Shown here: one piece after another, positions 1 to 15,526 of the stretch
How positions within the stretch are numbered: position 1 is the stretch's first letter
Layout of the letters: each line of letters opens with the position of its first letter
The notes under the pieces: model-generated
The model's database searches: none
Told to the model about the DNA's origin: nothing
The model's input: only the letters and a program-made list of their open reading frames with translations
Assembly (NCBI RefSeq): GCF_900156335.1
Contig: NZ_FTMZ01000021.1
Span: 1-64,000, forward strand
DNA from: Sphaerotilus natans
GTDB taxonomy: Bacteria; Pseudomonadota; Gammaproteobacteria; Burkholderiales; Burkholderiaceae_C
Direction: 5' to 3'
DNA: 64,000 nucleotides
Program-made: the position numbers and the translations under genes

Positions 1-19
1 TCGCACACGCGGTGGTGAC

Positions 20-95
20 GGGCTCTTAGCTCAGTTGGTAGAGCAGCGGACTCTTAATCCGTAGGTCGAGTGTTCGAGTCACTCAGGGCCCACCA
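20..95 (+). tRNA. tRNA-Lys (CTT anticodon)
   Basis: A full cloverleaf is readable: 7-bp acceptor stem (GGGCTCT with AGGGCCC, one T-G wobble), a D arm with AGTTGGTAGA, an anticodon loop CTCTTAA giving anticodon CTT, and a T arm GAGTG/CACTC around TTCGAGT. The 3' CCA is genome-encoded at 93-95. The anticodon reads the AAG lysine codon, which suits a high-GC genome. Confidence 0.96.
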
Positions 96-131
96 AAACA
101 AAAGACGCAGCAAGCGTTCAGCAACAAGGAT

Positions 132-157
132 TTGGCAGCAGTGCCAAGTCGTTTTTT
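132..157 (+). terminator. Possible terminator downstream of tRNA-Lys
   Basis: TTGGCA-GCAG-TGCCAA forms a 6-bp stem with a tetraloop, followed after GTCG by six T residues. It lies 37 bases after the tRNA and before the next gene, so it probably ends the tRNA transcript. The stem is short and four bases separate it from the T run, so the call is moderate. Confidence 0.5.
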
Positions 158-231
158 GCTTTGGCACCGGGTTTGCTGCCGTAACCCCACGCCGCATTCC
201 CCTTTCCCGTTTCTGCGACCATGCGCCGGCC

Positions 232-1107
232 ATGAAACGCCTGTCTGCGCTGAGTTTCCTGCTGATCCTGTCTTCCGCGCTGGCGCTGCTGTCGGCGGGC
301 TGCACCTCGCTGGACGAGCGTCAGCGGGCCTGGATCTTCCAGCCCTCGGACCGCAGCTGGGGGCGCGCCGAGGAGATCGCGCGGGGCATGGACGAGGTCT
401 GGATCGACTTCCATTCCGCCGAGACCGGTCGGCCGGTGCGGCTGCATGGCCTGTGGAGCGCGCACGAGCGCTTTGCCCGTGACCCGCAGGCGCCGGTGCT
501 GCTCTATCTGCACGGGGCGCGCTTCAATGTGGTGGGCTCGGCGGCGCGGGCGCAGCGGCTGCGGCAGCTCGGCTTCTCGGTGCTGGCGATCGACTACCGC
601 GGCTTTGGCCGCAGCAGCGACGAGCTGCCCTCGGAGACGCTGGCCCTGGAGGACGCCCGGGCGGCCTGGGACTGGCTGGCCCGCGAGCATCCCGGGCGGC
701 CGCGCTACATCTTCGGGCACTCGCTGGGCGGGGCGATCGCGATCGACCTGGCCACCCGGGTGGCGGACGAGGCCGGCACGCTGGTGGAGGGGACCTTCAC
801 CTCGATTCCGGAGGTGGTCGCCTCCTACCGCTGGGGCTGGCTGCCGCTGGAGCCGCTGATCACCCAGCGTTTCGCCTCGGTCGAGCGGGTCGCGCAGATC
901 GGCTCGCCGTTGCTGGTGGTGCATGGCAGCGAGGACCGCACCATCCGGCCGGAGCTGGGCCGGCGCCTGTTCGAGGCCGCGCGCGGCCCCAAGCGCTTCG
1001 AGCTGGTCGAGGGCGGCACCCACCACAACACCAATGCCATCGGTCTGGCGCAGTACCGGGTGGCGATGGCGGAGCTGTTCGGCCTGAGCGTGCCGGCGGC
1101 GCCCTGA
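232..1107 (+). CDS. Alpha/beta hydrolase lipoprotein
   Basis: A 291-residue serine hydrolase probably anchored to a membrane by lipid. The start at 232 is chosen because it begins a lipoprotein signal (MKRL, then a hydrophobic stretch) ending in the lipobox LSAGC near residue 23. The fold is of the S33/BEM46-like (YfhR) alpha/beta-hydrolase group: an HGARFN strand-turn near the oxyanion hole, the nucleophile elbow GHSLGG, a later VHGSEDRTI segment carrying the acid and GGTHHNT carrying the catalytic histidine. Substrate unknown; an esterase, lipase or peptidase role is possible. It is convergent with the synthetase gene to its right, so there is no operon evidence for function. Confidence 0.85.
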   Translation: MKRLSALSFLLILSSALALLSAGCTSLDERQRAWIFQPSDRSWGRAEEIARGMDEVWIDFHSAETGRPVRLHGLWSAHERFARDPQAPVLLYLHGARFNVVGSAARAQRLRQLGFSVLAIDYRGFGRSSDELPSETLALEDARAAWDWLAREHPGRPRYIFGHSLGGAIAIDLATRVADEAGTLVEGTFTSIPEVVASYRWGWLPLEPLITQRFASVERVAQIGSPLLVVHGSEDRTIRPELGRRLFEAARGPKRFELVEGGTHHNTNAIGLAQYRVAMAELFGLSVPAAP

Positions 1108-1138
1108 GCGCGTCCGGCCTGGCCGCCACACGGGCCGC

Positions 1139-4100
1139 TCAGCACGCCCCGCCGGTCGCCTGCGCCGGGTTGCCCTGCCAGCGGCTGCCGGCCTCGAGCT
1201 GCTCGCCCTTCATCACGAAGGATTCCGGCGCGATCCGCGCCTGCGGGCCGACCTGCACGCCGTAGTGCACGAAGGCACGCTCGCCCAGCGTGACCTGGTC
1301 GCCCAGCACGATGCGGCCGGACTTGAACAGGCCGTCCTCCAGCGAATGCCCCTGGATCAGCGACTGATCGCCCAGCGTGACGTGATCGCCCAGCGTGGTC
1401 ATCGTCTTCTCGACGATGGAGGCGCCGTCGTCGAAGAGCTGCCGCCCGACCCGCACACCCAGCATCCGCCACAGCAGGCCCATGAACGGCGTGCCGCGCA
1501 GCGCGGTCATCAGCACGCCGTCGCCGGCGAAGCCGAGCTTCCAGAAGCGCTCATGGCGCCAGAAGCCGGGCTCCAGGATCGAGCAGGTCAGCGGCTCGAG
1601 CCGGCGCCAGCCCAGGCTGGCGCGATCGACCAGCACGAACCACAGCAGTTCCAGCACGATCGCCACCAGCGTGCCTGCCGCCAGCGACAGCGCCGGCGGC
1701 AGGCCTGGCACACCGACATAGGCGCCATACAGCACCATCGCCACCAGCGCCGCGCCGACGCCGTGCGCGCCGACGAAGAGCAGCATCGTCAGCCGGTTGA
1801 CCCGGGTCTTGCGCCGCAGCGCCTGCGCCCGCCAGGCCGGATCGCTCCAGCGCGGATCGGGCCGGTCGCGCAGCACCGAGCGCGGGATCTCGAAGGCCGG
1901 CGAGCCGAGCAGGCCGATGTTCTCGCGCCGCGGCCCGTCCAGCGGCACCATCACCCGGGTGGCCAGCAGGCAGTTGTCGCCCAGCGGTGCGCCGGTGGGC
2001 AGCAGCACCGCATTGCCGGCGAAGCTGCGCGCGCCCAGCCGGGTCGGGCCGACGCGCCAGCCGCCCGGGCCCTGCTCGACCTGGGCCATCGTCAGCCCGT
2101 CGGAGACCATCGCGCCCGGGCCGAAGTGGCTCAGTCCGGGCAGGTTATGCTGCTGCGTCAGGCCGAAGTTCGAGCCGGTCTGCTCGATGCCGCCGACGAA
2201 GCGGTAGCCGACCACCGCGCGCAGCCAGACCACCACATCCGGACTGTCGCCGGCCAGCATGTTGTGCCAGCGCGAGTTGCTCCAGGCGGTGATCAGGCCG
2301 AGCAGCCAGTGGTGCAGACCGTAGAAGCGGTACAGCCGCCCCGGCACGATCGCCCGCGACAGCCACCGCGGCAGCGTGGCCATCAGCAGCGCCCACAGCG
2401 TCATGCCGCCCAGCAGCGCCAGCGCGCCGCCCAGCGCGACACCGCCCAGATCGGCCCAGTGCGCCGCATGGCCGTGGCCGAGCAGATGCAGGTCGAAGCG
2501 CTCCTCGAGGCGTCGTCCCGGCTCGCCCGACAGCAGCCACAGCCCCCACAGCGGCAGCGGCAGCGACACGCTGCCCAGCACCAGCAGCTGCCACAGCGCA
2601 TACAGCCGGCGGCGCAGCGCCGTCGGCCGCGGCTGCGCCGGCACCCGGCAGAAGTCGGTGGCGGTCGGCTGGGCGGGCACGCCGTGCGCATGCATGCCGG
2701 CGGCCAGCGTCTGACCGCGCAGCAGCGCCGAGGCATGGCCGAGCTGGCTGCCGTCCTGCATGCGGGTGTCGATGTCGAGCAGCGCATGGTCGCCGACATG
2801 GCAGCCGCGACCGACCTCGACCGGGCCGACGAGGATCCGGCCGGCCTCGGCCCGGCAGCCGGGCAGGCGCACCTGGCGGCCGATCAGGCTGTCGTCGCCG
2901 ATGCGGATCAGGTCGGTGCAGACCGGCAGCACCGGGGTGGCGATGTGCGCGTGCGCGCTGACCTGCGCGCCCAGCAGCCGCAGATAGCCGTTGAGCAGCG
3001 GCGAGCCCGCGAACATCACCATCGGGTTGAAGCGCATCAGCTGGCGCACCGCCCACCAGCGCAGATGGCGGCCGCTCCACAGCGGGAAGCTGCCGGCCTG
3101 CCAGCGGCCGACCAGCAGCCACTTCAGCGCCACCGGCAGCAGCACCGCCAGCGCCCACAGCGCCGAGCCGGCCAGCGCGGCCCGCAGATAGGCCTGCAGC
3201 GCATCGGTGGCGGTCAGCAGCCAGTCCATGCCGATCAGCAGGGCCTGGAAGTGGATCGTCAGCCAGGCCAGCGCCATCAGCACCTGGGCCAGGCCGCAGC
3301 CCAGATAGGCAGCGCGCGACGCGCAGGCGGGTGCCTCGGCCTGCGACTGAGGGACGGGATCGGCCGAGGTGGCGGTGGCCATGGTGGTGGCCGCGGTCTG
3401 CTCCAGATGCGCCGAGAGCGCCCGCAGGCTGGGATGCGCGTAGATCGCGCGCATCGTCACGTCGCTGCGCCCGAGCTGGCGGCGCAGCCGCGCGCCGAAT
3501 CCCGCCATCAGCAGCGAATTGGCGCCCAGGTCATCGAAGAAATGGGCGGTGGCCGACAGCTCGTGCGCCGCGCTGCCGAGCGTGGCCGCCAGCGCGGCCG
3601 CCAGCGTCTGCTCGGTGCCCGGGCGCGGCCGCTCGGCCGGATCCATCGCCTCGGCGCCGCCGGACAGCGCCGGCGCGCGCGGCGCGGGCAGCGCCTTGCG
3701 GTCGGCCTTGTCGCTGGCCAGCATCGGCATCTCGTCGAGCTGCTCGTACAGGCGCGGCACCATGTAGTCGGGCAGCTGCGTGCGCAGCGCCTCGCGCAGT
3801 CCGGCCGGGGAGGGCGGATCGGGCCAGCCGGGGCGCACCGTCCAGTAGGCCACCAGCTCGACCTGGCCGGGCGCGGCCGACCAGGTGTGCACCACCGCCT
3901 GGCGCACGCCGGGCTGGGCCATCAGCACCGACTCGATCTCGGTCAGCTCGATGCGGTAGCCGCGGATCTTGACCTGGGTGTCGATGCGGCCGAGGTACTC
4001 GATCCGCCCGTCCTCGCGCAGGCGGCCGAGGTCGCCGGTGCGGTAGAGCCGCCCCGACGGATTCGGGTCCACGCCGACGAAGTCGTCGAGAAAGACCCGG

Positions 4101-5281
4101 GCGGTCTGCTCCGGCCGGTTCAGGTAGCCGCGCGCCACGCCCGCGCCGGCGATGACGATCTCGCCGGTCTCGCCAGCCGGCAGCACCCGGGGCGCCTCCG
4201 GGTCGAGGATCAGCACGCTGTAGGTCGGCAGCGGCCGGCCGATGGTGACCGGCGCGGCCGGATCGAGCACCTCCAGCGTCGCGGTGACGGTGGTCTCGGT
4301 CGGGCCGTAGGCGTTGAGCATGCGCCGCGCCGGCGTGGCCCAGCGCTGCACCAGATCGCGCGGACAGGCCTCGCCCGAGACGATCAGCAGCCGCAGATCG
4401 GGCAGATCCTCCTCGAGCGTGGCCAGCGCGGTGGGCACGCAGCACAGCGCGGTGATGCGCCGCCGGCGCAGGAACTCGCCCAGATCGGCGCCGAGCAGGC
4501 TGGTGCCGCTCTGGTTCGGATGCAGCGTCGCGCCTACGCTCAGCGGCACCCAGGTCTCCTCGACCGCGAAGTCGAAGGCCATCGTCAGGCCCTGGTAGAC
4601 CTGGTCGTCGGCGCGGTAGCCGTAGGTCTCGGCGGCGACCCGCACGAAGTTGCAGATCTGCGAGTGATCGATCGGCACGCCTTTCGGGCGTCCGGTCGAG
4701 CCGGAGGTGTAGATGACGTAGCACAGCGCATCAGCCACGCCGGGCTCGGGATCGGGGTCGCGGGTGGGCAGGCGGGCGGTGTCGACACGCGCCAGCGCCG
4801 CCTCCAGCGCCGGGTCGTCCAGGCACAGCCCCGGCACGCCCAGCCCGGCCAGCCGGTCGGCATGGCGCTGCACCGACAGCACCCGGCCGACCTCGGCATC
4901 GGCGCAGATGAAGGCGCAGCGCTCGTCCGGAAAGCCCGGGTCGAGCGGCACATAGGCCGCGCCGGCCTTGAGCACCGCCAGCATCGCCACATGGCCGTGC
5001 ACCGTCTTGTCGAACAGCAGCGCGACCCGCTCGCCCGGGCGCAGGCCCAGCCCGTCGCGCAGATGCCGGGCCAGCCGGTTGGCGCGCCGGTCCAGGTCCG
5101 CGTAGCTGACCGGGCCGTCGTCGGTCTGCAGCGCGGCGGCGCGCTCGGCGCGGCCCTCGCGGGCCCAGGCATCGCAGCGGGCCTCGAACAGATGGTGCAG
5201 CCGCTCGTGCGGCCGCCAGCGCAGGCGGTGATCGGCATCGGCCTGCTGCAGCAGGGCCGGCGGCGGGGTCAGGCGGTCCAT
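1139..5281 (-). CDS. Pls/PosA-type single-module peptide synthetase
   Basis: A 1380-residue membrane-bound NRPS-like enzyme. Residues about 25-530 are an adenylation domain: YTSGSTGRPKG near residue 193, an A4-like segment AFDFAVEETW, the NAYGPTE motif and a GYRIE motif. A carrier domain follows, with the phosphopantetheine serine in GANSLL near residue 589. The remaining half is the Pls/PosA terminal architecture: about six membrane segments (near 665-725, 885-975 and 1165-1220) separating tandem hexapeptide-repeat acyltransferase-like domains. In epsilon-poly-lysine synthetase (Pls) this half condenses one amino acid repeatedly without a normal condensation or thioesterase domain. The A4 segment keeps the Asp that binds the alpha-amino group and has a Glu four residues later, which would suit a cationic side chain. 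It lies 28 bases downstream of a diaminobutyrate aminotransferase gene, so L-2,4-diaminobutyrate is the inferred substrate. Product unproven. Confidence 0.9.
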   Translation of the reverse strand: MDRLTPPPALLQQADADHRLRWRPHERLHHLFEARCDAWAREGRAERAAALQTDDGPVSYADLDRRANRLARHLRDGLGLRPGERVALLFDKTVHGHVAMLAVLKAGAAYVPLDPGFPDERCAFICADAEVGRVLSVQRHADRLAGLGVPGLCLDDPALEAALARVDTARLPTRDPDPEPGVADALCYVIYTSGSTGRPKGVPIDHSQICNFVRVAAETYGYRADDQVYQGLTMAFDFAVEETWVPLSVGATLHPNQSGTSLLGADLGEFLRRRRITALCCVPTALATLEEDLPDLRLLIVSGEACPRDLVQRWATPARRMLNAYGPTETTVTATLEVLDPAAPVTIGRPLPTYSVLILDPEAPRVLPAGETGEIVIAGAGVARGYLNRPEQTARVFLDDFVGVDPNPSGRLYRTGDLGRLREDGRIEYLGRIDTQVKIRGYRIELTEIESVLMAQPGVRQAVVHTWSAAPGQVELVAYWTVRPGWPDPPSPAGLREALRTQLPDYMVPRLYEQLDEMPMLASDKADRKALPAPRAPALSGGAEAMDPAERPRPGTEQTLAAALAATLGSAAHELSATAHFFDDLGANSLLMAGFGARLRRQLGRSDVTMRAIYAHPSLRALSAHLEQTAATTMATATSADPVPQSQAEAPACASRAAYLGCGLAQVLMALAWLTIHFQALLIGMDWLLTATDALQAYLRAALAGSALWALAVLLPVALKWLLVGRWQAGSFPLWSGRHLRWWAVRQLMRFNPMVMFAGSPLLNGYLRLLGAQVSAHAHIATPVLPVCTDLIRIGDDSLIGRQVRLPGCRAEAGRILVGPVEVGRGCHVGDHALLDIDTRMQDGSQLGHASALLRGQTLAAGMHAHGVPAQPTATDFCRVPAQPRPTALRRRLYALWQLLVLGSVSLPLPLWGLWLLSGEPGRRLEERFDLHLLGHGHAAHWADLGGVALGGALALLGGMTLWALLMATLPRWLSRAIVPGRLYRFYGLHHWLLGLITAWSNSRWHNMLAGDSPDVVVWLRAVVGYRFVGGIEQTGSNFGLTQQHNLPGLSHFGPGAMVSDGLTMAQVEQGPGGWRVGPTRLGARSFAGNAVLLPTGAPLGDNCLLATRVMVPLDGPRRENIGLLGSPAFEIPRSVLRDRPDPRWSDPAWRAQALRRKTRVNRLTMLLFVGAHGVGAALVAMVLYGAYVGVPGLPPALSLAAGTLVAIVLELLWFVLVDRASLGWRRLEPLTCSILEPGFWRHERFWKLGFAGDGVLMTALRGTPFMGLLWRMLGVRVGRQLFDDGASIVEKTMTTLGDHVTLGDQSLIQGHSLEDGLFKSGRIVLGDQVTLGERAFVHYGVQVGPQARIAPESFVMKGEQLEAGSRWQGNPAQATGGAC

Positions 5282-5309
5282 GACGGGCGCGATCCAGGCC
5301 TGGTCCGTG

Positions 5310-6611
5310 TCAGGCGGCGCGGCGCAGCGTGCCGGCCACCGCGTCGGCCACCGCGCCGTGCAGCAGCGCCAGACCCTGCTCGAGCAGCGGCAGCGGGGTG
5401 TTCAGCGGCGCGAGCACCTTGAGCACCTGGTCATGCGCGCCCGATGTCTCGATGATCAGGCCGCGCTCGAAGGCCAGCGTGCACACCCGCGCGGCCAGAT
5501 CGCCGCCGAGCACGTCCAGGCCCTGCATCATGCCGCGCCCCTTCAGCCGGGCGCCGGGCACCTCGCGGGCGATGCGCTCCAGATGCGCGTGCACCAGCGC
5601 GGCACGGCGGGCGATCTCGTCGGTGAAGCCGGGCTCGCGCCAGTAGGTGTCGAGCGCGGCGGCGGCGGTGACGAAGGCATGGGTGTTGCCTCGGAAGGTG
5701 CCGTTGTGCTCGGCGGGCTGCCAGCGATCGTGATCCGGATGCACCAGCACCAGCGCCATCGGCAGGCCGAAGCCCGACAGCGACTTCGACATCACCACCA
5801 GATCGGGCACCACGCCCATGCCGTCGAAGCTGAAGAACGGCCCGGTGCGGCCGCAGCCGGCCTGCACGTCATCGATGATCAGCAGCGCGCCGTGCTGCCG
5901 CGCCAGCAGCGCGATGCGCTGCACCCAGGCGGCGGAGGCCGCGTTGAGCCCCCCCTCGCCCTGGACCGTCTCCAGCAGGATGGCCGCCGGCGCATCGACG
6001 CCGCCGGACGGGTCCTCGAGCAGCTGCGCCAGCAGCGCGCTGGTGTCCAGCCCCTCGCCGTGGTAGCCGTCGAACGGCACCCGGGTGACGCCCGACAGCG
6101 GCAGCCCCATGCGGTTGTAGCGGTTGCCGGTGGTCGCCAGCGCGCCCATCGTCACGCCGTGATAGCCGTTGGTGAAGGCGATGACGTTGTGCCGGCCGGT
6201 GACCTTGCGGGCCAGCTTGAGCGCGGCCTCCACCGCATTGGTGCCGGTCGGGCCGGTGAACTGCACCCGGTGCGGCAGGCCGCGCGGCTGCAGGATCAGC
6301 GTCTCGAAGCGTTCCAGGAAATCGCGCTTGGCCGCCGAGTGCAGGTCCAGCCCCATCGCCAGGCCATCCGCGCCGATGTGGCGCAGCAGCGCCTCCTTCA
6401 TCGCCGGCTCGTTGTGGCCGTAGTTCAGCGCGGCGCAGCCGGCCAGGAAGTCGATGTACTCGCGGCCGCTCTCGTCGCGCATCAGGCTGCCGCGTGCGGA
6501 GGTGAACACCGTGTCGAAGCGGCGGCAGTAGCCGCGCACGGCGGACTCCCGGCGCGCGAAGACGGCGCGGTCCTGCGGTCCGGTCGGTGCGATGGCGGGA
6601 ATCGGATTCAT
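5310..6611 (-). CDS. ectB: Diaminobutyrate--2-oxoglutarate aminotransferase (EctB/PvdH type)
   Basis: A class-III PLP aminotransferase of 433 residues that should convert L-aspartate semialdehyde plus glutamate to L-2,4-diaminobutyrate. Family marks include FTGPTGTNAVEAALK for cofactor phosphate binding, IIDDVQAGCGRTG with the cofactor Asp, and MSKSLSGFGLPM with the Schiff-base lysine at about 276. The start at 6611 is preceded by AGGAGA at good spacing; a longer reading to 6659 has no such site. EctA and EctC are absent nearby, so ectoine synthesis is unlikely. The partner is the adjacent Pls-like synthetase, as PvdH supplies diaminobutyrate to pyoverdine synthesis. The exact name (EctB, Dat or PvdH) cannot be settled by eye. 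Confidence 0.9.
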   Translation of the reverse strand: MNPIPAIAPTGPQDRAVFARRESAVRGYCRRFDTVFTSARGSLMRDESGREYIDFLAGCAALNYGHNEPAMKEALLRHIGADGLAMGLDLHSAAKRDFLERFETLILQPRGLPHRVQFTGPTGTNAVEAALKLARKVTGRHNVIAFTNGYHGVTMGALATTGNRYNRMGLPLSGVTRVPFDGYHGEGLDTSALLAQLLEDPSGGVDAPAAILLETVQGEGGLNAASAAWVQRIALLARQHGALLIIDDVQAGCGRTGPFFSFDGMGVVPDLVVMSKSLSGFGLPMALVLVHPDHDRWQPAEHNGTFRGNTHAFVTAAAALDTYWREPGFTDEIARRAALVHAHLERIAREVPGARLKGRGMMQGLDVLGGDLAARVCTLAFERGLIIETSGAHDQVLKVLAPLNTPLPLLEQGLALLHGAVADAVAGTLRRAA

Positions 6612-6726
6612 GTCGAGTCTCCTGAGGCCGGGTGGGTTGGAGATGACAGTGTGAATCAATGAAACAATTGGTAAATTTTGTTTACATTATCACGATGGAA
6701 CCGATTTTCTGGGCGTTCTTCGGCGC
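6612..6726 (-). promoter_or_regulatory. AT-rich leader of ectB with inverted repeat
   Basis: This 115-base gap before the aminotransferase is markedly AT-rich compared with its surroundings. It contains the inverted repeat GTAAATTTTGTTTAC at 6671-6685. It probably carries a promoter and a regulator site for ectB and the synthetase gene, in addition to any read-through from the receptor promoter. No known operator consensus is matched with confidence. Confidence 0.4.
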
Positions 6727-8217
6727 TCAGCGCGGCACGCACCAGCCCTCGCGCGGCGGTGGCGCACCGAGGCGGCAGGGGCCGCCCGGGCGCGGTGCGG
6801 GCTCGGTCCGATCGGCCCCAGGGGGCAGGGGAGCCATGGCGGGTGCCGAGGCGGGCTCGATCGCTGGCCGCTGCGGCCGCTGGCCGGCGGCCAGCGCCAG
6901 GCGCCAGCGCGCCAGCTGAACCCGGCTGTCGGCGCGCTGCAGCGCGATGCGGGCTTCGGTCTCGTACAGCATCGCGTCGGCCAGATCGGTGGCCGAGGCG
7001 TCGCTGTCGCGGTGGCGGCCCAGTTCGGTGAAGAGCAGCGCGCGCCGGGTGCGCAGCACATCGGCATGGGCCTGCCGCAGCGCATCGGCGTGCCGCAGCA
7101 CCAGCAGGTGCTCCCAGGCGGTCAGGGTGGCGTCGCGCCGCACGCTGTCCAGCGCCGCCAGGGCCGCCTCATGCTCGGCGCGTGCCGCGCGGACCTGCGC
7201 GGCCTGCGCACCGCCGTCGAGCAGCGGCAGGCTCAGGGTCAGCGCGGCCTGCCGGGCGCCGCCGCTCAGGCGACCGCTCTCCAGCGTGGGATCGTCACGC
7301 CGACCCGCCCCGATCCGCGCCGACATCGACAGCGAGGGGCGTCCTGCCCGCTCGCTCTGGACGCGCGCGGCCTGCGCCGCGGCGGCGCGTGCCCGTGCGG
7401 CCCGCAGCTCGGGATGCTCGCGCTCGACCGCTTCCAGCCACTGCGGCATCTGCTGCGCCACCTCGCCGGGCGAACTGGCTGGAGAGGTTTCCGACGAAGG
7501 CGGCGGCAGCCGCCAGACGGTGCCGGCCGGCGCACCAAGCCGCCAGGCCAGACGCCCCTGGGCCAGCGCCACGGCTTCCTCGGCCTCCAGCCGGGCGAGC
7601 CGGGCCTGCTCCAGCGCCAGCCGGGCCTCGATCACGTCGGCATGATCGGGGCCGTCGGCGCGGCGGTTGCGCAGGCGTGATTGGCGCTGCAGCTCGGCCA
7701 GCCGCAGCTCCAGATCGCGCCACAGCCGCAGCCCCTCGCTGTCGTCGAGCGCGGTCCGGTGCGCCTCGGCCGTCTCGATCAGCACGGTCTGCACCGTCGC
7801 GTCATGGCTGGCGGCGGCCTCGATCAGCTGCTGCCGCGCCGCGTCCTGCGCCGCCTCGCGCTGGCCGCCGTCGAGCAGCAGCCAGTCCAGCTCCAGCGCG
7901 ATCGAGCGGCTGCGCCCGGTGGCATCGGCCCAGGCACCCGACTGCCGGCCCAGATCGAGCCGGGCGCCCAGCACCGGCGCGCGTGCGGCCTGCTGGAGCT
8001 GTTCGCGCGCGGCCTGGGCCTGCAGCAGCGCGCTGCTCTGGCGGGTGCGCGGGTCGTGGCAGAGCGCGCGGCTCATCGCCTCGGCCAGCGTGAGCAGGCT
8101 GCCCGGTGCAGGCAGCGTGCAGGCCTGCGCCGACGGCATCAGGCCCAAGGCCATCGCGGTCACCGCCAGGCCTGCGCGCACCGAAGCGGCAAGGCCCGAC
8201 GGGGGCCGGGAGAACAT
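6727..8217 (-). CDS. TolC-family outer-membrane efflux protein
   Basis: About 496 residues. The start at 8217 gives a normal signal peptide (MFSRPPSG, hydrophobic core, AQA before the mature Cys); a longer frame to 8262 exists and neither start has a strong ribosome site. The mature protein is Ala/Gln/Arg/Leu-rich with two similar halves of long helices, each with the TolC-type pattern of LxL barrel strands (ARLDLGRQSG; SMSARIGAGR, LTLSLPLLDGG). The C-terminal tail after about residue 450 is Pro-rich. It should form an outer-membrane exit duct. Its position between a TonB receptor and the diaminobutyrate genes suggests export of the product of that cluster. No inner-membrane pump or HlyD-type adaptor lies beside it, so it may pair with a pump encoded elsewhere. 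Confidence 0.82.
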   Translation of the reverse strand: MFSRPPSGLAASVRAGLAVTAMALGLMPSAQACTLPAPGSLLTLAEAMSRALCHDPRTRQSSALLQAQAAREQLQQAARAPVLGARLDLGRQSGAWADATGRSRSIALELDWLLLDGGQREAAQDAARQQLIEAAASHDATVQTVLIETAEAHRTALDDSEGLRLWRDLELRLAELQRQSRLRNRRADGPDHADVIEARLALEQARLARLEAEEAVALAQGRLAWRLGAPAGTVWRLPPPSSETSPASSPGEVAQQMPQWLEAVEREHPELRAARARAAAAQAARVQSERAGRPSLSMSARIGAGRRDDPTLESGRLSGGARQAALTLSLPLLDGGAQAAQVRAARAEHEAALAALDSVRRDATLTAWEHLLVLRHADALRQAHADVLRTRRALLFTELGRHRDSDASATDLADAMLYETEARIALQRADSRVQLARWRLALAAGQRPQRPAIEPASAPAMAPLPPGADRTEPAPRPGGPCRLGAPPPREGWCVPR

Positions 8218-8304
8218 CAGTGAGAAGGGCACGGCAGGACAGGCAAGTCGCAAAGGACACATCCTGTCACAAGTCGGTGACCTGGCGGCGAAGCCGCGAA
8301 GACC

Positions 8305-10395
8305 TCACATCTTCAGGTTGAGGGCCAGCGTCACCGAGCGGGGCGCGCCCGGCGAGCTCATCGGCTGCGCGCTGCCCGAGGGCCAGAAGAAGTTGTCGTA
8401 CCAAGTGTAGGCGTGCTGGCGGTCGGCCAGGTTGCGCACCTGCAGGTCCAGGCTGGCGCGGCTTGACAGCGCACGGCGCACGCTCAGGTCGAACAGCACA
8501 TGGGCGCCATGCTTGCCTTGTGCGTTCAGGTCATCGATGTAGTGGCTGCCCTGGGCGCGGCCCTGCAGCGTCAGGCGCCACTGGGCGTCCGGGCTGTACT
8601 CGATGCCTAGATTGGAGATGTGGCGCGGCGTCGAGAACACCTCCTTGCCCGCCAGCGACACGCCGCTGGCGGTGTAGGCCTGCACCACCCGCGCCTCCTG
8701 CAGCGAGTGCGAGGCCCACAGGCGCAGCTGCTCGCTGGCGCGCAGCGTCGCCTGCAGGTCCAGGCCCTGGCGGCGGGTGCGGCCCAGGCCGACGGTGGTG
8801 CCGGTGCTGGGCATGTTGGCGACCTCGTCGGTGGCGTCCTGCCGCCACAGCGCCACCCGCGTCTCCAGCCCGTCCAGCGGCGCGAGCTTCACGCCCAGCT
8901 CCTTGCCGGTGTTGATCGAGGCCCCGAAGGGCGCCTGCGAGGCCGAGGTCAGATAGGCCGGCGCCCGCGAGCCGGTCAGGATCTGGAAGGTACGGCCCCA
9001 GTTGGCATAGACGCTGGTCGAGGCCGAGGGGCTCCAGATCATGCTGAGCTTGGGCTGGTGGATGGGGCCGTAGTCCTGCAGGCTGCCGCGCAGGCCGCTG
9101 GTGTTGATCAGGGTGTCGCCCTGGAAGCGGTCGATGCGCCAGCCCGGCACCAGCCGCAGCGTCGGCGTGGCCTGGACCAGCGCCTGCACGAAGACCGCGC
9201 TGTTGTCGAGCGAATGGCTGTCGTCGTTGGAGGTGGTGGTCGGCTGGCTGAAATCGGTCGGCAGCGCGTAGGCGTAGCGCCAGCGCTGGTAGTGGTTGCG
9301 CTGACGCTCGAGCTGCACGCCACCGTCGAGCGTCAGCTGTGCGCCGGCGCGCCAGGTCAGCCGGCCGGACAGACCGTTCTGCTCCTCGTCCCAGACCCGG
9401 CGCTGGCGCGGGCTGTTGCTCAGGCCGCTGTTGCCGGTGAAGGTGACGCGGCGGTCGTCCTGGTAGATGTTGTTGTAGAGCCGGCCCGACAGGTGCAGAT
9501 CGGGGCGGATCTTCCAGTCCAGATGCACGCTGGCCTGGCGCATGTCGCGGGTGTCGCCGTCGTTGGCGTTGTGCGCGAAGCTCTGCCAGCGGTCCTCGGC
9601 CATCTGCGCCGCGGTCATGAAGCCCGGCTCCTCGGCCCGCTGCGCCGACATCCGCGCGATCAGGCCCAGCCGCAGGTCGCCGTTCGGCGAGGACAGGAAC
9701 CACTTGCCGCCGACCGCCTGCCGCTCCGACGCCGAGTGCGCCCGGTAGCCGTCGGAATGCTGGTGCCCGACAAAGTAGTTCTGCGCGAAGCCGCCAGCTT
9801 CCCTGCCGAACGCGAGCTGGACCTCACGGGTCGAGAAGCTGCCCGCGCTCAGCCGCGCCTCGCCGTAGTTGCCGCCCTGGCGGGTCACCACATCGATGCT
9901 GCCGCCGATGGCATGCAGGCCGTGACGCGGATCATTGGTGCCGCGCACCACCTCGATGCTGTCGATGTCCAGCGGGAACACCATGTCGATGAAGCGCTGG
10001 TTGCCGCTGTTGACATTGCTCGGGATGCCATCGATCAGCACCTTGATGCCGTTGATGTAGCCCTCGCCGTTGAAGGCGCGGAAGGTCGGCTTGCCCGACT
10101 CGGCGCCCATGCGGGTCTCGGTGAGCTGGATGCCGGGCAGCAGGCCGAGCAGTTCCCAGCTCTGCGCGACGTTGCGGTCCTCGATGCGGTCGGCCCCGAG
10201 AATGTCGACCGAGGTCAGCACCTGGCGGGTCTTGAGCACGCCGCCGCTGCGGCCGCTCACGGTCACGCCACCCAGCACGATCGCGGGATCGCTGGCCTCG
10301 GACTCGGCGCGGGCGGGCAGCATCGGGCTGGCCAAGGCGGCGACCACTGCCAGCGGCAGGATCTTCGGGACAAACGTCGGGGCGTGAACAGTCAT
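8305..10395 (-). CDS. TonB-dependent outer-membrane receptor
   Basis: A 696-residue receptor. The start at 10395 (MTVHAPTF) is followed by a signal peptide ending near ARAES and preceded by a GAGAG purine run. The plug domain follows (LGADRIEDRN, LLPGIQL, GYINGIKVLIDGIP, IEVVRGTNDPRHGLHAIGGSIDVVTRQGG), then a 22-strand barrel ending in the outer-membrane signature LALNLKM. This family imports ferric siderophores, other metal chelates or cobalamin using TonB energy. The Fur-box-like palindrome just upstream argues for an iron chelate. It heads the leftward set that includes the TolC-like protein, EctB and the Pls-like synthetase, 87 bases from the TolC gene. A plain TonB box is not obvious. 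Confidence 0.92.
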   Translation of the reverse strand: MTVHAPTFVPKILPLAVVAALASPMLPARAESEASDPAIVLGGVTVSGRSGGVLKTRQVLTSVDILGADRIEDRNVAQSWELLGLLPGIQLTETRMGAESGKPTFRAFNGEGYINGIKVLIDGIPSNVNSGNQRFIDMVFPLDIDSIEVVRGTNDPRHGLHAIGGSIDVVTRQGGNYGEARLSAGSFSTREVQLAFGREAGGFAQNYFVGHQHSDGYRAHSASERQAVGGKWFLSSPNGDLRLGLIARMSAQRAEEPGFMTAAQMAEDRWQSFAHNANDGDTRDMRQASVHLDWKIRPDLHLSGRLYNNIYQDDRRVTFTGNSGLSNSPRQRRVWDEEQNGLSGRLTWRAGAQLTLDGGVQLERQRNHYQRWRYAYALPTDFSQPTTTSNDDSHSLDNSAVFVQALVQATPTLRLVPGWRIDRFQGDTLINTSGLRGSLQDYGPIHQPKLSMIWSPSASTSVYANWGRTFQILTGSRAPAYLTSASQAPFGASINTGKELGVKLAPLDGLETRVALWRQDATDEVANMPSTGTTVGLGRTRRQGLDLQATLRASEQLRLWASHSLQEARVVQAYTASGVSLAGKEVFSTPRHISNLGIEYSPDAQWRLTLQGRAQGSHYIDDLNAQGKHGAHVLFDLSVRRALSSRASLDLQVRNLADRQHAYTWYDNFFWPSGSAQPMSSPGAPRSVTLALNLKM

Positions 10396-10411
10396 GCACC
10401 ATCTCTCTTTT

Positions 10412-10431
10412 GATAATGGAGTATCATTATC
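10412..10431 (-). promoter_or_regulatory. Fur-box-like operator of the TonB receptor
   Basis: The 20-base sequence GATAATGGAGTATCATTATC is an inverted repeat of GATAAT and ATTATC. Its right nine bases equal the Escherichia coli Fur consensus half, and the left half differs at two positions with one extra central base. It lies 16 bases upstream of the receptor start, where Fe-Fur would repress. Binding is inferred from sequence only. Confidence 0.75.
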
Positions 10432-10543
10432 TTTTTTGGGCGAGAGAATGTGAACATCTGTTGTGCAAGCGCTGCACAACACGGGCGGCAGGAAGTTGGG
10501 AAGCGAAGAGGTGGGGGCGGGTTGTGGCGCGAGGCCGGGGACG

Positions 10544-10567
10544 CTGCCGGCCCCGTGGGGCCGGCAG
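10544..10567 (-). terminator. GC-rich hairpin after lapE
   Basis: CTGCCGGCCC-CGTG-GGGCCGGCAG forms a perfect 10-bp stem 12 bases beyond the stop of the leftward lapE-like gene. It has no T tract, so it may only stall polymerase or protect the mRNA end. The rest of the 184-base gap holds the receptor promoter and Fur-like site. Confidence 0.4.
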
Positions 10568-10579
10568 GGGAGAGGCGCG

Positions 10580-12442
10580 TCAGCGCTTGGTGCTTTCCTT
10601 GACGATGTACCACTCGGCGCCACGGCGCTTCCAGGTCAGCACCTTCTGGGCCTTGTCGTTCAGGTCCTTGGAGGTGTAGATCTGGTCGAAGCGGGTCTCG
10701 ACCACATTGGCCGAGACGGTGCGGCGCTGCACATTGGCGATCTTCATCTCGACCGCGCCGCTCTTCTGCAGCAGCTTGGTGCGATTGGCGAACCAGGCGC
10801 TGCGCGAGGTGTTGCCCTCGGGCTTGAAGCTCGGGTCGTAGAAGCTGAGGTAGCGGGTCGCGTCCTTGCTGGTCCAGGTGGCCGCCCAGTCGAGCAGGCG
10901 CTGCGACACCGGAGTGCTGGGCGCCGGATCCGGTGCGGAGATGTCGACCGGGGCGGCCGGCGTGGCCGCGGCCGGTGCGGCGCCGCGTGCGCCCGGCAGC
11001 GGTGCCAGCGAGGCGCCAAGCTGACGCGCCCGGGCGTCCAGATCGGCCTTCGGGGTGACGGTCAGATCGGTGGCGCTGATGGGGCAGCGGGTGGCGGCAT
11101 CGTCGCCGGCCTGCCAGTAGCGGCCTTCCGCGGGCTCGTCTTCCGCGCTGCCGGCGCGCGTCAGGCCGAGCGAGGCGACCAGGCTGCTGGTGGCTGCGTG
11201 GGTGCGGGCCCGCGCGACCTGCAGGTCATGCTCGGCGTTGATGTAGGCGCGGCGGGCGCCGTAGAGCTCGTTCTCGGAGTTCAGCAGGTCCAGCAGCGTG
11301 CGCTGGCCGATGTCGAACTGCTGGCGATAGGCATCGCGCACCTTCTCGCTCGACAGCACATGGCGGTCGAGGTAGGCGAGCTGCTCGGCAAGCTTCTGGG
11401 TGTCCTGGTAGGCGATCGCGGCGGTCTGGCGGGCGTCGCGGCAGGCCTTGTCGCGGGTGTCGGTGGCCTGGCCCAGCAGGTTGGCGGCCTGACGCACGCG
11501 CGCCTTGTCAGCGCCGCCGTTGAACAGGTTCCAGTTCAGCGCCACGCCGGCGGTGGTGTCTCGTTTCTGGTCGAGCGTGCCGTCGAGGTTGCGGCCGGCG
11601 GCGGCACGCACCCGGGCCTCGACCCGCGGCTGGTAGAGATTGCCTTCACGCTCGCGCGAGACCGACTGCGCGGCGCGCAGGTTCTCGACCGCCGCTGCGA
11701 TCGCGGCATTGCGCTTGACCGACTGCTCCAGCGCCGCGCCGCTGGTGGCGGGCAGGCCGCGCTCCAGGCCGGTCACCGACGGCATCTCGACCGGCGGCAG
11801 GCCGCTGGTGAGCCGGCGGAAGCGCTCGGTCACGTCATGCAGGTTGGAGGTCTCGGTGGTCAGGTTCGACTCCGCCAGCGCCAGACGGGCTGCGGCCTGC
11901 TCCTGGTCGACGCCCCGGCCGACGCCGGCGCGCACCCGCGACTGGATCTGGTCATGCACATGGCGGTGCTGGACATAGTTGTCCTCGGCCATGCGCACCA
12001 GCTTGCGCTGGCGCTGCACGTCGATGTAGGCGCGCACGCTCTCGAGCGCGACCTGCTCGCTGGTGTCGATGAACTCGAAATAGCGCACCAGGCGGGCATG
12101 GTTCAGCCGGTCGACCTGGTTCATGGTCTGGAAGCCGTCCCACAGCAGCTGGGTGGCCGACAGCGCGACACCGGCGCTGTTCATGTTCTGGCTGACCGAG
12201 CCGATGCGCTCGTTGATCCGGTTGGCCTCGGCCGAGAGGTCGACGCGCGGGTAGTAGGCGCCGCGGGCCACGTCGATCTCGTCGGTGGAGGCCCGGAAGG
12301 CGTTGAGTCGCGCCGTGACCTCGGGGTTGGTGGTGATCGCGCGCTGGACCGCATCCTTGAGCGGGTCGGTGCTCTGGGCAACGGCGACCTGGCAGGCGAA
12401 GGCGATCAGGCCGATGACGAGATGAGAGGCTGCCTTGTTCAT
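10580..12442 (-). CDS. lapE: LapE-like TolC-family secretion channel with C-terminal Cds6-like domain
   Basis: A 620-residue protein; the start at 12442 follows AGGAAACA and opens a signal peptide (MNKAASHLVIG to VAVAQS). Residues about 25-450 are a TolC/type-I secretion outer-membrane duct (DAVQRAITTNPEV; GAYYPRVDLSAEANR; DGFQTMNQVDRL; LNWNLFNGGADKARVRQA; FDIGQRTLLDLLNSENELY). A Pro/Ala linker leads to about 120 residues (LDWAATWTSKDATRYLSFYD to the end) resembling the Cds6/NTF2-like domain seen at the C-terminus of some L,D-transpeptidase-family proteins. It diverges from lapG-lapD and accompanies a LapA-like adhesin and LapBC, so it should be the outer-membrane pore of that secretion system. 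The added domain is unusual: ordinary members end near 450-480 residues. Confidence 0.87.
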   Translation of the reverse strand: MNKAASHLVIGLIAFACQVAVAQSTDPLKDAVQRAITTNPEVTARLNAFRASTDEIDVARGAYYPRVDLSAEANRINERIGSVSQNMNSAGVALSATQLLWDGFQTMNQVDRLNHARLVRYFEFIDTSEQVALESVRAYIDVQRQRKLVRMAEDNYVQHRHVHDQIQSRVRAGVGRGVDQEQAAARLALAESNLTTETSNLHDVTERFRRLTSGLPPVEMPSVTGLERGLPATSGAALEQSVKRNAAIAAAVENLRAAQSVSREREGNLYQPRVEARVRAAAGRNLDGTLDQKRDTTAGVALNWNLFNGGADKARVRQAANLLGQATDTRDKACRDARQTAAIAYQDTQKLAEQLAYLDRHVLSSEKVRDAYRQQFDIGQRTLLDLLNSENELYGARRAYINAEHDLQVARARTHAATSSLVASLGLTRAGSAEDEPAEGRYWQAGDDAATRCPISATDLTVTPKADLDARARQLGASLAPLPGARGAAPAAATPAAPVDISAPDPAPSTPVSQRLLDWAATWTSKDATRYLSFYDPSFKPEGNTSRSAWFANRTKLLQKSGAVEMKIANVQRRTVSANVVETRFDQIYTSKDLNDKAQKVLTWKRRGAEWYIVKESTKR

Positions 12443-12712
12443 TGTTTCCTGGATCCTTGTGCTGGCCTTCGGACGGGACATTTGATGGAGAAACACATTG
12501 CCGGCGTGTCTCTCCCTTCGTGACACGCGGATGGAGGTTGGATTCCCGAGCGGAAATGTGAGAGCAACTCGCGAACAACCTTCAACGAGTATTCCACAGC
12601 GTGTTGCCTGCCTCCAAGTGGCCTGAGTACAAAATCGCATTGTTCACTTCCGGGCGCACAGTTTCGTGACCGATGCCTACGGTTCTGACAACTCCTTGCC
12701 GACAAGGCGGGC
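12443..12712. promoter_or_regulatory. Divergent lapE / lapG intergenic region
   Basis: This 270-base stretch between the leftward lapE-like gene and the rightward lapG-lapD pair has no convincing open frame. It must hold both divergent promoters and is less GC-rich than the genes around it. I see no clear -35/-10 pair or operator. Confidence 0.5.
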
Positions 12713-13462
12713 ATGGATGTTGTCGTGTCCGGTTCACCTTTGCTTGGATTCAGCCGCTGGCGAGGCCGGTCCCTGCGGGGGCGATCCTCGCCGGTGCTGC
12801 TGGCGCTGCTGCCGGTGGTGGCGGCGCTGGTGCTGGCGCTGGGGGGCGGCTTGTGGTCGGCCGGCGCGCGGGCCTGGGACACCCAGCAGATGCTGCGCCA
12901 GGCGCAGCGCCACGGCGCACGCAGCGTCGATCTGGCACAGGCCCTGATCGAGACGGTGCAGATGGGCCAGCGCATGGACGACGAGCGACGTCTGGAGCTT
13001 GTCAACCAGTTCTTCAACCGGCGCATCTATTTTCGTGACGACATCGAGGTCTGGGGCCAGATCGACTACTGGGCCACGCCGCTGGAGATGTTCGCCCAGG
13101 GTCAGGGCGACTGCGAGGACTACGCGATCGGCAAGTATTTCGCGCTGATGGCCGCGGGCGTGCCGCAGGCGAAGCTGCGTCTGGTCTATGTGCGCGCGAC
13201 GCTGGGCGGCGTCGGCGGGGTGCAGCAGGCGCACATGGTGCTGGCCTACTATCCGTCACCGACGGCCGAGCCGCTGATCCTCGACAACCTGATCGGCGAC
13301 ATCCGCCCGGCCTCGCGCCGGCCCGATCTGCAGCCGGTGTTCAGCTTCAATGCCGACGGACTGTGGCAGGGCACGCAGGGCCCCGGTGCCGGGGATCCCA
13401 CGGCGCGGCTGTCCCGCTGGCGCGAGGTGCTGATCAAGGCCCGCGAGCAGGGTCTTTTCTGA
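12713..13462 (+). CDS. lapG: LapG-type periplasmic cysteine protease (BTLCP family)
   Basis: A 249-residue transglutaminase-like cysteine peptidase with an N-terminal membrane/signal segment (about residues 27-50). The catalytic triad matches LapG: Cys134 in GDCEDYA, His174 in QAHMVLAYY and Asp191 in LILDNLIGD. LapG clips the N-terminus of the LapA adhesin at an Ala-Ala bond and so releases the cell from a surface. When c-di-GMP is high, LapD holds LapG and blocks this. The gene sits 89 bases before lapD on the same strand, and the adhesin to its right carries a fitting cleavage site. Confidence 0.93.
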   Translation: MDVVVSGSPLLGFSRWRGRSLRGRSSPVLLALLPVVAALVLALGGGLWSAGARAWDTQQMLRQAQRHGARSVDLAQALIETVQMGQRMDDERRLELVNQFFNRRIYFRDDIEVWGQIDYWATPLEMFAQGQGDCEDYAIGKYFALMAAGVPQAKLRLVYVRATLGGVGGVQQAHMVLAYYPSPTAEPLILDNLIGDIRPASRRPDLQPVFSFNADGLWQGTQGPGAGDPTARLSRWREVLIKAREQGLF

Positions 13463-13551
13463 GGCTTTGCATTGGTACCAGTTGGTGAAAAAACAACGAT
13501 GATTTTCGCAATGACGACAACCATGACGACACGCACTTCGAAGGAGCCGCC

Positions 13552-15453
13552 ATGTCCCTGATCCGGCAGGTGTGGATCCTCATCATGGGCACGATCGTGC
13601 TGGCCAGTGCGGGCAGCGTGCTGATGTCGGTCTGGACGGCACGAGGCTCGCTCGAGACGCAGCTGTCGATGAAGAACAACGACAACGCGCAGACGCTGGC
13701 GCTGTCGCTGTCGCAGCAGCGTGGGGACGCGGCGCTGCTGGAGCTGGCGATCGCCTCGCAGTTCGATACCGGGCACTACCAGTCGATCCGGCTGGTCGGC
13801 GCCGATGGCCGGGTTCTGGTCGAGCGCACCGCGCAGGTGGCGGTGCGCGACGTGCCGGCCTGGTTCGTCGATCAGGTGCCGGTGCATCCGCGTGCCGGGG
13901 TGGCCCAGGTCTCGAACGGCTGGAACCAGATCGGCACGCTGGAGCTGCGCAGCCAGTCGGCCTTCGCGCATGCCGACCTGTGGTGGTCGAGCGTGCGCAT
14001 GACGCTGTGGGCGCTGGGCGTGGGCGTGCTGGCGGCGCTGATCGGCCATCTGGCGGTGCGGCGCCTGCGCGGCCAGCTCGATGCGGTGGTGGATCAGGCC
14101 GAGGCGCTGACGCAGCGCCGCTTCGTCAGCATGGCCGAGCCGGCCACGCCGGAGCTGCGCCGGGTGGCGCAGGCGATGAACATGATGGTCGGGCGGGTCA
14201 ACCAGTTCTTCCAGGAACAGTCGCGCCAGGTCGACCAGCTGCGCCGCCAGGCCAGCTGCGACGCGCTGACCGGGCTGGCGCACCGCGGCCATTTCATGGC
14301 GGTGCTGGAGTCGGAGCTGGGCCGCGAGGACGGTGCCGGCGAGACGCAGATCGTGCTGGTGCGGCTGCTGGCGCTGGCCGATGTCAACCGCCGGCTCGGC
14401 CATCTGCGCACCGACGAGCTGCTGCGCTCGATCGCGGCGGTCCTGGCCGAGGCGGTGCCCGGACAGCCGGCGCCGCTGGTGGCGGGCCGCCTCAACGGCA
14501 GCGACTTCGCGGTGCTGCATCCACGCGCGCTGCCGGCGCGCGAGCTGACCGAGGCGCTGATGCAGCGGCTGCGCACGGTGGTCGAGGGGCTGGACGATGT
14601 CGCGGTGGTGATGTCGGCCACCGGCTGCCACCGCGATCGCCCGGTGGCCGAGCTGCTGGCCACCGCCGACCGGGCGCTGGCGGTGGCCGAGGCCGCCGGG
14701 CCGTTCCGCTGCCACCTCGACGGCATCGACGAGGCGCCGGTGCAGGGCGGCGAGGATGCCTGGCGCCGGGCGCTGCTCGACACGCTGATGGCCGCGCGCA
14801 TCCAGGTGCAGCCCTATCCGGTGCGCGACGCACGCGGTGTGCTGCTGCACCAGGAATGTCCGCTGCGCCTGCAGCTGGTCGAGGGCGGGCCGCTGGAGCC
14901 GGCCAGCCGCTGGCTGCCGATGGCGCTGCGCACCGGGCTGGGCAGCGATGTCGACATGGCCGCGGTCGCGCTGGTGCTGACCGCGATCGGTGCGGATCAC
15001 CAGCCACGCGGCGTCAACCTGTCGCCCCAGTCGCTGGCCGATCCGCATTTCCTGCCACGGCTGCGTGCGCGGGTGGCTGCGGCCGGCGAGGCGGCCCGGC
15101 TGCTGTGGCTCGAGGTGGACGAGATGGCGCTGCAGCGCCACCCGGAGTCGCTCGACGAGCTGTGCCGGCTGCTGCGGCCGCTGGGCGTGCGGGTCGGCCT
15201 GGAGCATGCCGGCGACCGGCTGGCCGCGATCGGCCGGCTGCTCGAGGCGGGTCTGGACTATGTGAAGCTGGCCTCGACCTGGACCGCCGGCCTGGCGGGC
15301 GACGAGACGCGCCGGCTCTGGCTGCGCAGCTCGGTCGGCATGCTGCACGGAGTGGGGCTGCAGGTCTTCGTCGAGGGGGTGCGCGATCCGGCCGATCTGC
15401 CCGCGCTGTGGGCGGCCGGGGTCGATGGCGTGACCGGGCCGGCGATCCGCTGA
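13552..15453 (+). CDS. lapD: LapD-type c-di-GMP receptor with degenerate GGDEF and EAL domains
   Basis: A 633-residue inner-membrane signalling protein starting 7 bases after AAGGAG. Order: membrane segment (10-30), periplasmic LapD/MoxY-type output domain (about 30-150), second membrane segment (151-170), HAMP (about 172-225), GGDEF-like domain (about 235-390) and EAL-like domain (about 400-633). The GGDEF motif is replaced by NGSDF. The EAL signature is replaced by IQVQPYPV, so catalytic Glu is missing. Both domains should therefore be inactive as enzymes, as in LapD, which binds c-di-GMP through the EAL domain and captures LapG in the periplasm. It follows lapG in an apparent two-gene operon. 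Confidence 0.93.
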   Translation: MSLIRQVWILIMGTIVLASAGSVLMSVWTARGSLETQLSMKNNDNAQTLALSLSQQRGDAALLELAIASQFDTGHYQSIRLVGADGRVLVERTAQVAVRDVPAWFVDQVPVHPRAGVAQVSNGWNQIGTLELRSQSAFAHADLWWSSVRMTLWALGVGVLAALIGHLAVRRLRGQLDAVVDQAEALTQRRFVSMAEPATPELRRVAQAMNMMVGRVNQFFQEQSRQVDQLRRQASCDALTGLAHRGHFMAVLESELGREDGAGETQIVLVRLLALADVNRRLGHLRTDELLRSIAAVLAEAVPGQPAPLVAGRLNGSDFAVLHPRALPARELTEALMQRLRTVVEGLDDVAVVMSATGCHRDRPVAELLATADRALAVAEAAGPFRCHLDGIDEAPVQGGEDAWRRALLDTLMAARIQVQPYPVRDARGVLLHQECPLRLQLVEGGPLEPASRWLPMALRTGLGSDVDMAAVALVLTAIGADHQPRGVNLSPQSLADPHFLPRLRARVAAAGEAARLLWLEVDEMALQRHPESLDELCRLLRPLGVRVGLEHAGDRLAAIGRLLEAGLDYVKLASTWTAGLAGDETRRLWLRSSVGMLHGVGLQVFVEGVRDPADLPALWAAGVDGVTGPAIR

Positions 15454-15483
15454 GCCGACGCGCGATCCGGCGCGCGATGCCAT

Positions 15484-15513
15484 GAAAGAAGGGGCTGCCA
15501 TCGCAGCCCCTTC
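15484..15513 (-). terminator. Terminator of the adhesin gene
   Basis: GAAGGGGCTGC-CATC-GCAGCCCCTTC is an 11-bp perfect stem with a tetraloop just beyond the leftward adhesin stop. On the minus strand it runs into TTTC. It is also placed to stop lapD from the other side, so it may work in both directions. Confidence 0.8.
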
Positions 15514-15526
15514 GTTCTGGTGCCGA

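Follow-up and report, generated by a model that had tools for sequence, protein, structure and literature searches.

The 64,000-nucleotide window analyzed here, which is the start of contig C7 (NZ_FTMZ01000021.1) of a Sphaerotilus natans genome (G000; 4.63 Mb in 57 contigs), carries four minus-strand genes in a row for a TonB-dependent receptor, a TolC-like outer-membrane channel, a diaminobutyrate aminotransferase and a Pls/PosA-family homopolymer synthetase. The arrangement had been proposed in an earlier note made from the DNA letters alone, and it was confirmed here with curated family models. The best explanation of the locus, which we consider probable, is that a cassette for poly-2,4-diaminobutyrate (poly-Dab) has been placed under an operator of the metal-import type. 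The conserved unit consists of the channel, the aminotransferase and the synthetase. As a well-supported prediction from sequence, the synthetase is likely to make poly-Dab, a homopolymer that would be joined by isopeptide bonds.

The synthetase gene (1139-5281, minus strand; 1380 amino acids) encodes adenylation and carrier domains followed by a terminal domain that scores 541 bits against TIGR02353 (cut-off, 423.1), the one Pls/PosA terminal domain above the model cut-off in this genome. Past residue 650, a simple window scan found seven hydrophobic stretches. An ordinary siderophore nonribosomal peptide synthetase (NRPS) was ruled out, as the protein has a single adenylation and a single carrier domain and no condensation domain was reported. 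The aminotransferase (5310-6659, minus strand) is of the EctB/PddC type and exceeds the cut-off of the diaminobutyrate--2-oxoglutarate aminotransferase model TIGR02407 (570.7 bits; cut-off, 552.2), while scoring slightly below that of the broader TIGR00709 (393.8; cut-off, 401.6); the ATG near 6611 is the likelier start. The channel gene (6727-8262, minus strand) matches OEP at 101.8 bits. The receptor (8305-10395, minus strand; 696 amino acids, ATG at 10395) has Plug (63.7 bits) and beta-barrel (120 bits) domains. Against the siderophore-receptor model TIGR01783 it scores 141 bits, under the cut-off of 223.5, and its nearest solved structure is a single weak and uninformative match covering the last third (9rvq, 60.7 bits).

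The nine code positions of the adenylation pocket, placed by eye at the Stachelhaus positions, read DFECISAVT. This way of reading the code was checked on 30 loci from the GTDB family: 19 gave the published PosA code DMEHNGTVS (or S for T), and the remaining 11 comprised four with DFECISAVT, the window included, and seven ordinary NRPS modules. Positions 1 and 3 are Asp and Glu, as Pls/PosA cationic homopolymer synthetases require, and position 2 is Phe. According to PMC10522769, Phe occupies the length-setting pocket position in synthetases of poly-diaminopropionate (PDAP) and poly-diaminobutyrate (PDAB). The window enzyme thus has a PDAP/PDAB-type pocket, which alone cannot separate diaminopropionate (Dap) from diaminobutyrate (Dab). 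The same paper describes PDAP/PDAB-type codes in many genera, with Proteobacteria among the clusters, and relatives of the window synthetase may already be listed there.

The Dab homopolymer proposed in the earlier note is borne out, as a prediction, by this pocket together with the Dab transaminases that accompany DFEC codes. A scan of named genomes yielded 79 synthetase loci, with neighbors judged within the fetched flanks. A Dab-type aminotransferase was near 24 of the 30 DFEC loci and none of the 49 others (8 with another readable code and 41 without a readable code). The association is significant overall (Fisher, 5e-15) and against readable codes only (6e-5), with kinship ignored in both cases. 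Four of the 79 loci (L077, L078, L130 and L144) are contigs of relatives already included, and without these the proportion is 21 of 26. Among the six DFEC loci with no such neighbor, L098 and L149 are on contigs shorter than 6 kb and L144 starts at a contig end; the other three (L115, L119 and L137) either are exceptions or have the gene further away. Identity of the neighboring aminotransferases to the window's enzyme ranges from 36 to 81%, with 11 of the 24 at only 36 to 38%, and all 10 that were scanned, seven of them from this last group, pass the Dab-transaminase family model. An aspartokinase-like gene, named by eye, was present near 11 of the 30 DFEC loci and 0 of the 49 others and is therefore not universal. 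As a separate observation, many frames without a readable adenylation code (41/79; L079 to L155) are approximately 700 to 1150 amino acids long and are possibly free-standing Pls terminal domains.

Conservation was assessed in 13 genomes of the genus, the window's own included (G305 is 68% and G303 83% complete). A full synthetase was found in five (G000, G058, G303, G304 and G248), the aminotransferase adjoins it in all four relatives that possess it, and an OEP channel lies beside it in three of these four (G058, G303 and G248). A Methylibium genome (G250) has the synthetase, the OEP channel and a 4'-phosphopantetheinyl transferase; its contig stops just before the synthetase, where the aminotransferase cannot be judged. 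The transferase gene (L038 4788-5453) lies between channel and synthetase. The G058, G303 and G304 loci seem to occupy a common position, flanked on one side by chemotaxis-type genes and on the other by a nitronate monooxygenase-type gene (flanking genes identified by eye, apart from the G058 monooxygenase), whereas the G248 and window cassettes sit elsewhere. In a tree of 47 rows, built by a quick method and with long branches, Donghicola among them, the window synthetase, those of the four genus relatives, Methylibium and Donghicola formed one group (Shimodaira-Hasegawa-like approximate likelihood ratio support, 98) among mostly actinobacterial DFEC enzymes and far from the PosA-code group. 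Geminicoccus, another proteobacterium, fell elsewhere in the DFEC part. In an order-wide search (E <= 1e-100), the window's own genome was the single hit among 399; as G058, G248 and G250, which by construction would have matched, evidently lie outside the 399 genomes drawn, this indicates rarity, not absence.

The neighborhood conservation anticipated for all four genes thus held for the channel, aminotransferase and synthetase and failed for the receptor. The receptor adjoins the cassette only in G000 and, as a remnant, in the sister genome G306; its membership in a conserved unit was rejected on this ground, and the claim that it belongs to the system was not upheld. G306 is approximately 95 to 98% identical across the flanks and receptor pieces. 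It retains scraps of the cassette (the synthetase tail, short synthetase and aminotransferase pieces and a weak channel piece), and its receptor lacks a 211-bp stretch as well as the 141 bp carrying the operator and start codon. This pattern is consistent with receptor and cassette having decayed together, and the remnants indicate that their arrangement predates the split of the window's species and G306.

Homologues that share 60% identity or more with the receptor are present in G000, G305, G306 and G058, and distant ones (40 to 43%) in G170, in G305 and at a second place in the window's own genome. A NikA/CntA-like binding protein (E <= 1e-30) was found in the same four genomes as the receptor, a coincidence in 4 of 13 genomes with a chance of 1 in 715 under independence of the genomes, an assumption that does not hold. 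The receptor is present in 4, the synthetase in 5 and both in 2 (G000 and G058) of the 13 genomes. In G058 the receptor and importer are adjacent, and in G305 a receptor tail is followed by a Fur-family gene and then the importer. The G058 receptor is preceded by a different inverted repeat, AACGCAAATGC-AAAC-GCATTTGCGTT (L068 about 5240-5280), which suggests another regulator there. In the window's own genome the importer is on contig C33, at another locus than the cassette. It follows a TonB receptor other than the window's and a Fur-family gene; after it come an ExbB-type gene and one that by eye looks TonB-like, although it has no Pfam match. Like NikA/CntA-type importers, this importer has a binding protein of the SBP_bac_5 type; however, the specific models stay below cut-off (NF045468, 187.9 of 600; TIGR02294, 157 of 393; CntA, 92 of 800). 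Approximately 10 kb from this importer lies a large NRPS/polyketide synthase cluster (G000:C33:55399-90000; L071 to L073) in which another EctB-like aminotransferase shares 56% identity with that of the window.

The candidate operator is a 20-bp even palindrome, GATAATGATACTCCATTATC (10412-10431, minus strand), lying over the -10 element of a sigma-70-like promoter, TTCACA-17-GATAAT (10426-10454, minus strand). The promoter agrees with the consensus at 10 of 12 bases (shuffling the region would give 0.1 sites of this quality), the palindrome overlaps its -10 hexamer (10431-10426), and it is the sole promoter-like site called in 5200-10700. In 100 dinucleotide-shuffled versions of the window, no match to GATAATGATACTCCATTATC occurred at up to 3 mismatches. 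A second copy, agreeing at 16 of 20 positions by eye, lies just before the importer and near its separate Fur-family gene (G000:C33:43703-43722). An operator consensus was built from these two sites and a weaker one that precedes the G305 receptor; searched with it at up to 3 mismatches, the window's own genome gave no third site (reversed control, 0; expected from base composition alone, 0.0006). Within the genus, sites within 3 mismatches were present in 3 of 13 genomes, both sites in G000 and an importer-upstream site in each of G305 and G306. The shared operator likely controls the receptor and probably the cassette.

Several observations weigh against a metal-controlled poly-Dab cassette. 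The two operator matches in the window's own genome follow by construction, and only the lack of a third is informative. No operator site within 3 mismatches was present in G058 or the other cassette genomes, and no receptor relative in the four 20-kb cassette loci of the genus (G058, G248, G303 and G304); any metal control would therefore be lineage specific. No OEP channel was detected by tblastn at the G304 synthetase locus, Donghicola has the aminotransferase and synthetase without channel or receptor, and the G306 losses could stem from assembly error. The 42-bp gap between receptor and channel holds short inverted repeats (by eye), and the gap before the aminotransferase is AT rich and could hold its own promoter, although none was called there. 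These last points bear on the strongest competing explanation, according to which the receptor is merely a neighbor, the cassette is transcribed from a promoter of its own and the operator governs the receptor alone. It gains from the relatives' cassettes without a receptor, which must have their own promoter there, and from the AT-rich gap. However, receptor and cassette are on the same strand only 42 bp apart, no promoter was called between receptor and synthetase, and the arrangement was common to G306 before its losses; we regard mere adjacency as possible and as less probable than control of the whole run from the operator.

The palindrome was originally described as Fur-like, and iron control was proposed. 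A palindrome is indeed present ahead of the first gene; the Fur likeness did not survive in its canonical form, as the dyad is 20 bp and even, and the 19-bp Fur consensus had no match at up to 3 mismatches within the window. A canonical Fur box is not favored on this difference in spacing. The main iron regulator Fur could still act here through a variant site with one extra base, as dropping one base from the palindrome gives 18 of 19 Fur consensus bases and one of the three Fur-family genes that the genome has besides the C33 regulator looks canonical (148.7 bits). However, the extra base recurs in the C33 site, whose adjacent Fur-family gene is a different one, and action of the main Fur appears unlikely to us, somewhat more so than mere adjacency of the receptor. 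Among family models, those for PerR give the C33 regulator its highest scores, all under cut-off, and its metal therefore cannot be named. With this spacing, and with the only other operator copy found upstream of a NikA/CntA-like importer that has a separate Fur-family gene next to it, the proposed iron control was not substantiated, and iron as the controlling metal is unproven.

A further alternative is that the product is itself a metallophore, a short or capped poly-Dab chain that binds metal outside the cell in a complex recovered by the TonB receptor and the NikA/CntA-like importer. The single same-strand run of receptor and cassette, the operator common to the importer, the co-occurrence of receptor and importer and the joint damage in G306 would all agree with such a role. 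Nevertheless, G303, G304 and G248 carry the cassette in the absence of both receptor and importer; in G305 these two are present, and no synthetase was found in that 68% complete genome; in G058 the receptor/importer set and the cassette are 0.6 Mb apart. Likewise, 84 synthetase loci searched for the receptor, the C33 receptor, the importer binding protein and the C33 regulator yielded one distant Fur-family gene only, in Micromonospora. We consider this role improbable. Equally little credence is given to the idea that cationic poly-gamma-Dab is secreted to carry metal, with a dedicated Fur-family regulator governing its synthesis and export and with the TonB receptor and the NikA/CntA-like importer, which have the operator in common, recovering it; this would be a metallophore made by iterative homopolymerization. 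An antimicrobial or envelope polymer is more likely than a metal carrier. Least probable of all is a chain of Dap or another diamino acid with the aminotransferase serving something else, since Dab transaminases accompany DFEC codes and none of the five DFEA-type codes, and the genome has the second EctB-like gene near the NRPS/polyketide synthase cluster, even though DFE is common to poly-Dap and poly-Dab enzymes, which also counts against the Dab assignment, Phe is at position 2 in both (PMC10522769) and a PDAP synthetase can activate Dab weakly (PMC4668381).

The synthetase-aminotransferase pair was presented in the earlier note as part of a new kind of system. This does not hold for the pair, which corresponds in kind to the published PddA and PddC, making the cassette a variant of a known system. 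As described in PMC8225329, the poly-D-Dab cluster pddA-pddD of Streptoalloteichus hindustanus encodes a synthetase (PddA), a racemase (PddB), a Dab transaminase (PddC) and an aspartokinase (PddD). The likeness lies in the membrane-bound single-module synthetase and the Dab transaminase. In contrast, the window operon is without racemase or aspartokinase, belongs to a Gram-negative host and adds the TolC-like channel and, in this species, the TonB receptor. Neither PddD nor PddB has a counterpart among the genes at 70-12640, and PddB was not searched for elsewhere. The delta-poly-L-ornithine synthetase PosA of Acinetobacter baumannii (PMC10522769) is likewise Gram-negative and of the family TIGR02353, yet it has the code DMEHNGTVS rather than DFECISAVT and is distant in the tree, and the window synthetase has a Dab transaminase neighbor. 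What is new here is the proteobacterial clade and the TolC-type channel beside the synthetase-aminotransferase pair. In the literature searched, no report was found of a Gram-negative poly-Dab system, of the present neighborhood or of poly-Dab as a metallophore.

In the proposed mechanism, the aminotransferase would convert aspartate semialdehyde to L-2,4-diaminobutyrate. The membrane-bound synthetase would then activate Dab, load it onto its carrier domain and link the units via the side-chain amine to give poly-gamma-Dab, probably in the L form, as the operon has no racemase gene. From the conserved neighborhood we infer export by the synthetase and the TolC-type channel, with passage of the inner membrane via the synthetase's own membrane domain and of the outer membrane via the channel. 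In this lineage the cassette is probably read from the receptor promoter, under the 20-bp operator common to the importer locus with its own Fur-family gene. The polymer would then probably be made on release by the C33-locus regulator, most likely when some metal runs short.

A LapA-like adhesin set is also present in the window (10580-21049). It comprises a TolC family protein with a Cds6_C domain (10580-12640), a BTLCP/C93 protease of the LapG type (12713-13462), a LapD-type GGDEF-EAL protein (13552-15453) and a Calx-beta/RTX adhesin of 1840 amino acids (15527-21049). Beyond the synthetase end is a tRNA-Lys gene (20-95), of which G306 has three tandem copies (L056 11559-11889); an Rfam scan of 1-16000 found nothing besides tRNA.

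If the prediction is correct, poly-Dab synthesis, published for actinobacteria, extends to a clade of Proteobacteria that includes Sphaerotilus, Methylibium and Donghicola, with a plausible outer-membrane exit of the kind that a Gram-negative producer needs. The DFEC code together with a Dab aminotransferase would provide a simple marker for finding further such systems. As its cassette lies downstream of an operator that recurs at a metal-type importer, the window species would allow a direct test of the connection between polymer and metal.

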